DNA from: Bolinopsis microptera
Lineage: Eukaryota; Ctenophora; Tentaculata; Lobata; Bolinopsidae
NCBI RefSeq assembly: GCF_026151205.1
Contig: NC_087073.1
Coordinates: 12,741,578-12,805,577, forward strand
DNA: 64,000 nt
Direction: 5' to 3'
Positions within the stretch are counted from its first letter, which is position 1; the number at the start of each line of letters is the position of its first letter. The notes under the pieces are model-generated. The model was not told the origin of the DNA. It searched no databases and saw only the letters and a list, made by a program, of their open reading frames with translations. Below, piece by piece: positions 25,601-28,600 of the stretch. Position numbers and translations under genes: made by a program.

Positions 25601-28600
25601 CTCGAGTAGAGATCGGAGTTGCTGTTTTTAGCGCCGAATTGTAGAAACCATTGCGAGAACGTGCTGAGCACACAGACACTACTCTCCAGGATCTGGGAGT
25701 GTCCCCGATACACCGGCCAGTTCACGTCCGAACACTTGCTCCTCAAACTGAAATATTAGATGTTAGTTCACGTCCGAACACTTGCTCCTCAAACTGAAAT
25801 ATTAGATGTTAGTTCACGTCCGAACACTTGCTCCTCAAACTGAAATATTAGATGTTAGTTCACGTCCGAACACTTGCTCCTCAAACTGAAATATTAGATG
25901 TTAGTTCACGTCCGAACACTTGCTCCTCAAACTGAAATATTAGATGTTAGTTAACGTCCAAACACTTGTTCCTCAAACTGAAATATTAGATGTTAGTTCA
26001 CGTCCGAACACTTGCTCCTCAAACTGAAATATTAGATGTTAGTTAACGTCCGAACACTTGCTCCTCAAACTGAAATATTAGATTTTAGTTAACGTCCGAA
26101 CACTTGCTCCTCAAATTGAAATATTAGATGTTAGTTCACGTCCGAACACTTGCTCCTCAAACTGAAATATTAGATGTTAGTTCACGTCCGAACACTTGCT
26201 CCTCAAACTGAAATATTATATGTTAGTTCACGTCCGAACACTTGCTCCTCAAACTGAGAATATTAGATGTTAGTTCACGTCCGAACACTTGCTCCTCAAA
26301 CTGAAATATAAGATGTTAGTTCACGTCCGAACACTTGCTCCTCAAACTGAAATATTAGATGTTAGTTCACGTCCGAACACTTGCTCCTCAAACTGAAATA
26401 TTAGATGTTAGTTCACGTCCGAACACTTGCTCCTCAAACTGAAATATTAGATGTTAGTTCACGTCCGAACACTTGCTCCTCAAACTGAAATATTAGATGT
26501 TAGTTCACGTCCGAACACTTGCTCCTCAAACTTGTCGATTATGGATGAATGCCCGGATGACCGGAACTACGCGCGGAACTTCGTGGTAATTCCACGAGGA
26601 ATTCCACATCGAGGAATTGGAGTTTACCCGTAATGAGAAATAAAGCTTAATCTAACTTATTTGATGAATCATGCTTCACAATAAGTTAGTTGCCTAGGCC
26701 CCATAATATAAACATCACTTTAGTCATTAAGGAAATTGCTACTTAATCTTTAGTAAGGGATCCTTCAAAGTTGTTTAATTCATTACTCTGATGTTTGACG
26801 TCCGTACCAATCAGTTCCACCCACATAATAATTAACATGTGTTTTTATAAAGCTTACAGATGAAAATATTCGTACTATAAATAATGGAGTCCCAGGAGCT
26901 GAATATAATCTGATTTATCTCATCATGGTGTGAAATCATAGGTTAAATTTTGTATATATTACGGTGATCTCAGTCCCCACTCCCCAAGGTTGGTTTTTTG
27001 CCTGCTGCACCTTTAAAATGTTTACATTGATTAATAAGCTTTCGGCGCAATGATGCACATTTTCGAAGCTGATTCAGTTAGACTTATTGTGAGACACATT
27101 AGTCTACCAATTTCAAGTTATTGTAGTTTAGTAACTGCAGACTCTTCACGAATACATTTAAAGGGAATATAAGGGGATGACAATGGAGCGGGTTGGACGG
27201 GTTTCACTGTGACGATTAAAAAGTTTGGGATTCACGTCATTCGTAATTAAATCATTAATTGTCGTGAGGTAGATCTATTTTTACTACAATTCTTGGTCTT
27301 GGGGAACAAATCCTTGGCCTGAAGAGTAATAGTCCGCGGGATAATTTGTCAAATCACTCGTTTTCATTGACGTAATAGATTTGTTTTTCTGTGGGACACC
27401 ACAAAGAATATAGAAATAATAAGTATCGGTTTATTTGTTTTTTGAACACGGTTACTTTTGGGACAATAATAAGTACAGTGTCGCCTCTTAGACACAGGTC
27501 AATTTTCGGAAAGCACGTGGTTCTTTCAATTAATTTAATTTACAGTTTGCCGTAAAAGTTCGCAAAGTTTTGCTAGTTCGATTTAATTTTGTCACTTTCT
27601 TTTCAAGGCTCGTACTTTAAACCGAGCCGTGGTTTCAAAATAAGTAAAAATAAACGACTGAATGCGGATTGTATTTATGATAATGATGAATTGAAAGAAC
27701 CTACATTATTTGTTGAGTAATATAGCATTTTACAGGGATTCTGACCCTAAATGACCCGTTTGCGAAAGAATTTGGCTGCTTCCACGATCTGCTTCTTTGG
27801 ACTGCTCTCTCTCTCAGCAAGTCTGCCTCAAGAGTCAGAGCCCTCAGACCTGCCATTCTTCAACTCTTTCACAGCAGAGGCTAGGACCCCAAACTCACCC
27901 CGCTTCAAGTTCAATCAGCAAAAGCAAAGTACTACAAGAGACAGGGAGAACGAGCAAACAATAAGCCCTGTGCCCAATCTGATTACTAGGAAGAATTATC
28001 TAGAGCCGCGCAATACCCACAAAATAGCAGGGAATAAAGATACCGGGCCGGTAGGGTCTAAAACAGTTAAACCCAAAACTTCATCACATCAGATAATATG
28101 GTATGGAAGGGCTGGTTACGAAACCGAGCCTATTTTACCTGAAAGAACCGGTCCAACCATGAACTTACGGGAACTTATGAAGTTACACAGTGGGTTAGCA
28201 GCAAAATGGCGGACACCGAGTTTTCTAGATAAGGTGATATCTACAGAGCCACAATTTGAACTACTCCCTCTCCAACAAAGAGAAAATAACACGATAAACA
28301 GTGCTCTATTCGAAAAAGAAGAGAAGATCAAGAATGAGGAAACTGTGAAGGAAGGAAGGTATAGTGGTCAAACTACACCAGGTTTCAGTCTAATAGTAGT
28401 AGCATCAGCAAACACAGCACTGGCAATCATCTGTCTTATCTTCAACGGCTTTATCGTCCTCTACTACTGGAACAACTGCACCAATCTCCCCTCAAGTCTT
28501 TACTTCCGGAACGGACTATGTGACGGGATCACTGCTGTTGGTATTCTACTCCAGACTCCATCACTCCTCTCCATCCTGGACCAAGACGCCTCACACACTT

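Follow-up and report, generated by a model that had tools for sequence, protein, structure and literature searches.

Is a tandem array that multiplies the acceptor of an XPO6 intron a regulator of this gene, or a tolerated by-product of repeat growth? The question is raised by a 64,000-nucleotide stretch of the Bolinopsis microptera genome (hereafter the window), in which a minisatellite lies across an intron–exon boundary of XPO6 and repeats the splice acceptor together with the start of the next exon. Minisatellite-like tandem repeats of intron–exon boundaries, termed mirages, have been described in amphioxus genes, namely the globins BflGb6 and BflGb9, Adh3, troponin C and PGBD5 (PMC3087553 and PMC3902484). 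Here, we describe the anatomy of the XPO6 array and of its host gene, place it among other arrays of the genome, and weigh what it may do to splicing.

The array repeats an acceptor with its exon start

Tandem Repeats Finder (TRF) places the minisatellite at window positions 25719–26532 (minus strand), with a period of 46 bp, 17.7 copies, 97% matches and a score of 1556, consistent with the preliminary description of a 46-bp unit repeated about 17 times. Split copy by copy on the minus strand, the array yields 18 exon starts, with 17 intron pieces between them; each full 46-bp unit, read on the XPO6 strand, consists of 17 intron bases ending in the acceptor (AACATCTAATATTTCAG) followed by 29 bases of the next exon (TTTGAGGAGCAAGTGTTCGGACGTGAACT), and one unit is 47 bp long (TTCTCAG). 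CAG stands at 16 of the 17 unit-type boundaries, including the real acceptor before 25747, leaving 15 intact decoys, and the one acceptor without AG is a CAA at 26116–26118 (minus strand), before the exon start at 26115. All intron pieces but one, which has CTAAA, contain CTAAC (16 of 17), and a branch-site candidate is located about 15 nt ahead of the AG in nearly every copy. The acceptor and CTAAC previously assigned to the unit are thus present in nearly all copies, whereas the repeated exon part measures 29 bases, not the 28 given before.

On the outer side, the outermost exon copy is preceded by AAG (26531–26533, minus strand). Because the flank has only the AG in common with the unit, the outer edge of the array (window position 26530) is the start of an exon copy, and the array extends about 0.7 copy beyond whole units. 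Reading the outer flank as a decayed unit was ruled out by its score (5.0 versus a shuffle mean of 5.96). A search of the organism's own genome, which scores the best candidates only, places the array at one location in 264.65 Mb.

Compared with the unit, the copies carry 5 changes in 522 bases of exon part and 5 in 289 bases of intron part (P = 0.34). As the two rates are alike, the decoy exon parts are not visibly better conserved than the intron parts, and nothing indicates that the decoys are under selection. The changed copies are the middle ones (5 to 7, 9 to 11 and 13); copies 1–4 and 14–18, the coding copy among them, are identical over the compared parts. Eight decoys, at both ends of the array, match the coding copy base for base; its 29 coding bases may therefore evolve in concert with non-coding ones. 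The near-identity of the copies fits the recent growth proposed earlier.

Only the innermost acceptor is predicted to be productive

XPO6 lies on the minus strand. With a provisional human XPO6 sequence as the query for tblastn and alignment, matches were obtained in a C-terminal coding stretch (18025–19086, minus strand; 3e-35), in two N-terminal exons (8e-20 and 1e-13) and in weaker collinear pieces, and a frame at 43531–44052 matches Pfam Xpo1 with 46.8 bits against a cut-off of 22.7. The array-side exon and the C-terminal stretch have no match in Pfam, and the only phmmer match of the latter among solved structures is a chance one, so the XPO6 identity rests on tblastn with the provisional human query together with Pfam Xpo1. 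The collinear alignment of the array-side exon alone with the provisional XPO6 is equalled by none of 1,000 shuffles, and that of the peptide of both joined exons, at its collinear place, by 2 of 1,000.

Frame joining and XPO6 alignment define the genuine exon (25552–25747, minus strand) as 196 nt long, its first 29 nt being the repeated exon part. Its upstream partner, a 181-nt exon (42273–42453, minus strand) placed by frame joining, ends at TCCAA/GTATGT in phase 2, the slash marking the boundary, and the exon start at 25747 supplies the single base that completes the partner's split codon. The host intron between them, likewise from frame joining, spans 16,525 nt (25748–42272, minus strand) and carries the array at its 3′ end; the next intron, of about 5,880 nt (19670–25551, minus strand), leads to a following exon that was placed with the provisional human sequence and starts from 19669 after CCTCCTAG.

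When the partner exon was joined to each of the 18 exon starts, the frame remained open from 25747 only; at all 17 other boundaries it reaches TAA after the junction codon (N) and nine exon codons. The stop predicted earlier for splicing to a decoy is therefore found at every such boundary. By copy split and frame joining, the innermost intron piece (AACATCTAATATTTCAG, 25748–25764, minus strand) is predicted to hold the sole productive acceptor, in agreement with the earlier view that only the innermost copy yields the full product.

The host intron also contains long open frames on the opposite, plus strand: one at 27751–29448, without a Pfam match, and one at 40829–41815 with a likeness to rhodopsin-type receptors (27.9 bits, under the cut-off of 30.5). 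Two large arrays are located in the same intron, at 33941–34264 (31 bp × 10.5) and 38345–39338 (23 bp × 43), and further large arrays of the window lie at 10832–11341 (TG × 255) and 14295–15810 (62 bp × 24). Two adjoining, near-identical frames with rhodanese domains are found at 46957–47475 and 47949–48488 (minus strand; 59 bits each in Pfam), and the frame at 45732–46535 (minus strand) has its start in common with both, without a Pfam match of its own.

Arrays at other exon ends

To set the XPO6 array in context, we used a genome sample of 25 stretches of 10 kb plus the window, 314 kb in all, of which 58 arrays occupy 9.1%. Assuming 0.25 to 1 junction per kb, between 0.55 and 2.21 of the 58 arrays should fall on a junction by random placement; at least two were seen, the XPO6 array among them, so chance seeding explains the junction arrays of this sample. 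Splice words are not enriched in the 58 arrays relative to shuffles (1 versus 0.57, 2 versus 2.07 and 3 versus 3.19), a weak test in which the acceptor word misses the XPO6 unit.

Of 133 frames at array edges, 129 were scanned against Pfam, the other four being a duplicate and three alternative frames at the XPO6 array; seven families were matched, and only the match to an activin receptor was judged to be a junction array. This donor-side mirage (locus L017, positions 8101–8987, plus strand; TRF) repeats a 28-bp unit about 30 times; the unit joins the last bases of an exon that resembles type I activin/BMP receptors to the donor of that exon, CTG/GTAAGT. The exon matches Activin_recp with 23.5 bits against a cut-off of 20.9. 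Its first donor keeps the frame open, and the following seven donors examined lead to a stop.

Across the genome, three close copies of AGGTAAGT were matched 1,212 times (450 + 762), versus 11 (11 + 0) for the pattern read backwards; these matches count copies rather than arrays, and those listed comprise 7 arrays of 5 unit types, as judged by eye, with two types at two places each. One edge was read for each of the five types among the matches listed, and two of the five adjoin an evident exon end. The first is a donor-side mirage with a 44-bp unit (G000:C1:14124980–14125480, minus strand) at the end of an ADAM-like exon, in which a Reprolysin match of 19.3 bits, just below the cut-off of 20.8, covers the C-terminal end of the domain and is followed by GNGFVEEGEECDCGTEE, a putative disintegrin start. 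The other, also donor-side and with a 44-bp unit, is at least 1.9 kb long (G000:C1:4182050–4183790, minus strand), and the exon whose end it adjoins measures 104 nt. Reading of the remaining three edges (L040, L041 and L043) revealed no evident exon. In the sample, AGGTAAGT is rarer outside arrays than a control word (5 versus 13). The genome-wide AGGTAAGT count hints at something beyond chance seeding.

The C-rich array L007 lies in an intron, about 70 bp away from a different exportin exon; as it has no contact with that exon, it was rejected as a mirage. Beside an array with an AG/GTAACA word, adjoining an apparently coding frame, lies a run of N (L021, about 5900–6000). Many kinase domains and glutamate receptors of this genome are complete in single open frames, as if it were intron-poor. 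Kinase matches are spread over C1 to C13 and C68. Of two glutamate receptors tested, one (L037) has its best match in ML032222a, presumably a Mnemiopsis sequence, ahead of full-length vertebrate chains, with a CxGNDCW loop in common, and the other (L036) is best matched by vertebrate kainate receptors. A search of the genome for mitochondrial COX1 gave no match.

Splice-site choice and the likely role of the array

The preliminary description argued that an AG-scanning spliceosome should meet the upstream copies first. This argument is weak, because the copies are 46 nt apart and nearly every one has a branch-site candidate of its own, which would place the choice at branch-site recognition rather than AG scanning; indeed, 3′ sites at least 20 nt apart are treated as competing at branch-site choice in PMC9225289. 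With long introns on both flanks, exon definition is expected, by analogy, to favour the innermost site. According to the same paper, long introns reduce the preference for the upstream 3′ site but do not reverse it (PMC9225289). Two alternative 3′ sites can each bind U2AF or U2, and their concurrent occupancy inhibits splicing in vitro (PMC5389562).

The reading we prefer, with a probability of roughly two in three (0.68), is that the XPO6 array is a mirage grown on a junction, tolerated as a by-product in a genome rich in repeats, and not a regulator. A minisatellite would have arisen on the acceptor junction of the long XPO6 intron and expanded from there, repeating the acceptor, the branch-site candidate and the exon start together. 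Through exon definition, the spliceosome would pair the exon-proximal acceptor with the donor of the exon, so that most XPO6 mRNA is likely to be normal, and the few transcripts spliced to decoys would carry a stop and be removed by nonsense-mediated decay. In favour of a tolerated by-product we count the anatomy of the array and its copies, the stops at 17 of 18 boundaries, the long introns on both sides, the density of arrays combined with chance placement, the donor-side mirages at three other exons, and decoys showing no sign of selection. By analogy, published mirages of the same anatomy seem not to interfere with splicing (PMC3087553 and PMC3902484). On the opposite side, with 15 intact decoys the leak might well be more than slight, for acceptors the preference for the exon-proximal site in long introns amounts to a weakened upstream preference only (PMC9225289), concurrent U2 occupancy might inhibit splicing here too (PMC5389562), and, as to chance seeding, the genome-wide excess of donor-bearing arrays is larger than random seeding alone would suggest.

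The same decoys could instead form a length-dependent brake, in which their joint binding by U2AF and U2 slows intron removal or feeds nonsense-mediated decay, such that a longer array leaves less XPO6. Fifteen intact decoys, each with its own acceptor and an early stop, would suit such a brake, as would the in vitro inhibition by concurrent occupancy of two 3′ sites (PMC5389562) and the upstream preference that persists to some extent even with long introns (PMC9225289). We nevertheless consider a brake unlikely, given that RT-PCR suggests regular splicing of amphioxus mirages (PMC3087553) and that the decoys bear no sign of selection (P = 0.34). For any brake, joint U2 occupancy of the 3′ sites, and not scanning, would be the best mechanism.

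The origin of the array bears on a further alternative, namely that splice junctions are favoured birthplaces of minisatellites, owing to transcription, to splicing factors bound there or to the local structure of the DNA, and that the XPO6 array did not arise there by chance. The excess of closely spaced AGGTAAGT copies over the backward pattern, the rarity of this word outside arrays and the two of five edges that adjoin an evident exon end all point this way; however, the matches are copies and reduce to 7 arrays of 5 unit types among those listed, three of the five edges lack an evident exon, and splice words are not enriched in the 58 arrays, weak as that test is. We hold this alternative to be quite improbable. 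Little credence is likewise given to its extension, in which junctions seed minisatellites as a genome-wide class of donor and acceptor arrays, joint U1/U2 occupancy slows intron removal and repeat length tunes output. That the XPO6 array is inflated or misplaced by an assembly error is very improbable: tandem arrays are a usual source of such errors, but an array of 814 bp is short for long reads, point changes distinguish its copies, its edges fit XPO6 in frame, and similar arrays occur at other exon ends.

Comparison with known systems

Judged by its anatomy in the DNA sequence, the XPO6 array, for which we continue to favour a tolerated by-product, is of the known kind termed mirages. It is a minisatellite-like tandem repeat (46 bp × 17.7, 97%), its unit lies across a predicted junction that fits the partner exon in phase and is collinear with XPO6, and many but not all of its copies carry the splice dinucleotide (AG/GT in mirages generally; here 16 of 17 CAG and one CAA). 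Like the XPO6 array, the amphioxus mirages are boundary repeats with splice signals, with donor-side cases as well, and the BflGb6 mirage occupies the same side, i.e., the 3′ end of an intron and the start of an exon; RT-PCR and Adh3 data suggest that they are regularly spliced, and their length varies between haplotypes (PMC3087553 and PMC3902484). In size and number the BflGb6 mirage differs, with 3 to 6 units of 150–160 bp against 46 bp × 17.7 in XPO6, and the hosts seen in those two papers are all cephalochordates, whereas the host of the XPO6 array is a ctenophore. A search of open-licence papers found no mirages outside cephalochordates, which is no proof of absence, and a term search of PMC3488318 and PMC12221973 returned nothing on mirages; the ctenophore setting may be new.

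If mirages form a class beyond lancelets, with a ctenophore among the hosts, they would make it possible to ask whether splice junctions are a general site of repeat growth, whether this growth creates new introns, and how exon definition operates in an early-branching animal. They also provide a natural experiment in splice-site choice, in which 15 intact, near-equal acceptors compete, one is productive and the others leave a countable, stop-bearing product. Repeated splice sites within a gene are shared with human IFI6 (6-16), which is said to contain a minisatellite with multiple splice donor sites; these extra donors are reportedly used, whereas the sites in the XPO6 array are acceptors. 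In studies of competing duplicated splice sites, equal sites compete and proximity within the recognition unit decides (PMC9225289), yet those cases are mostly of two sites in mammals, compared with at least 15 in tandem in XPO6. Tandem duplication of AG/GT has been proposed, for mirages as well, as a route by which duplicated signals may become new introns or exons (PMC3087553); unlike such intron gain, the XPO6 array shows no new intron.
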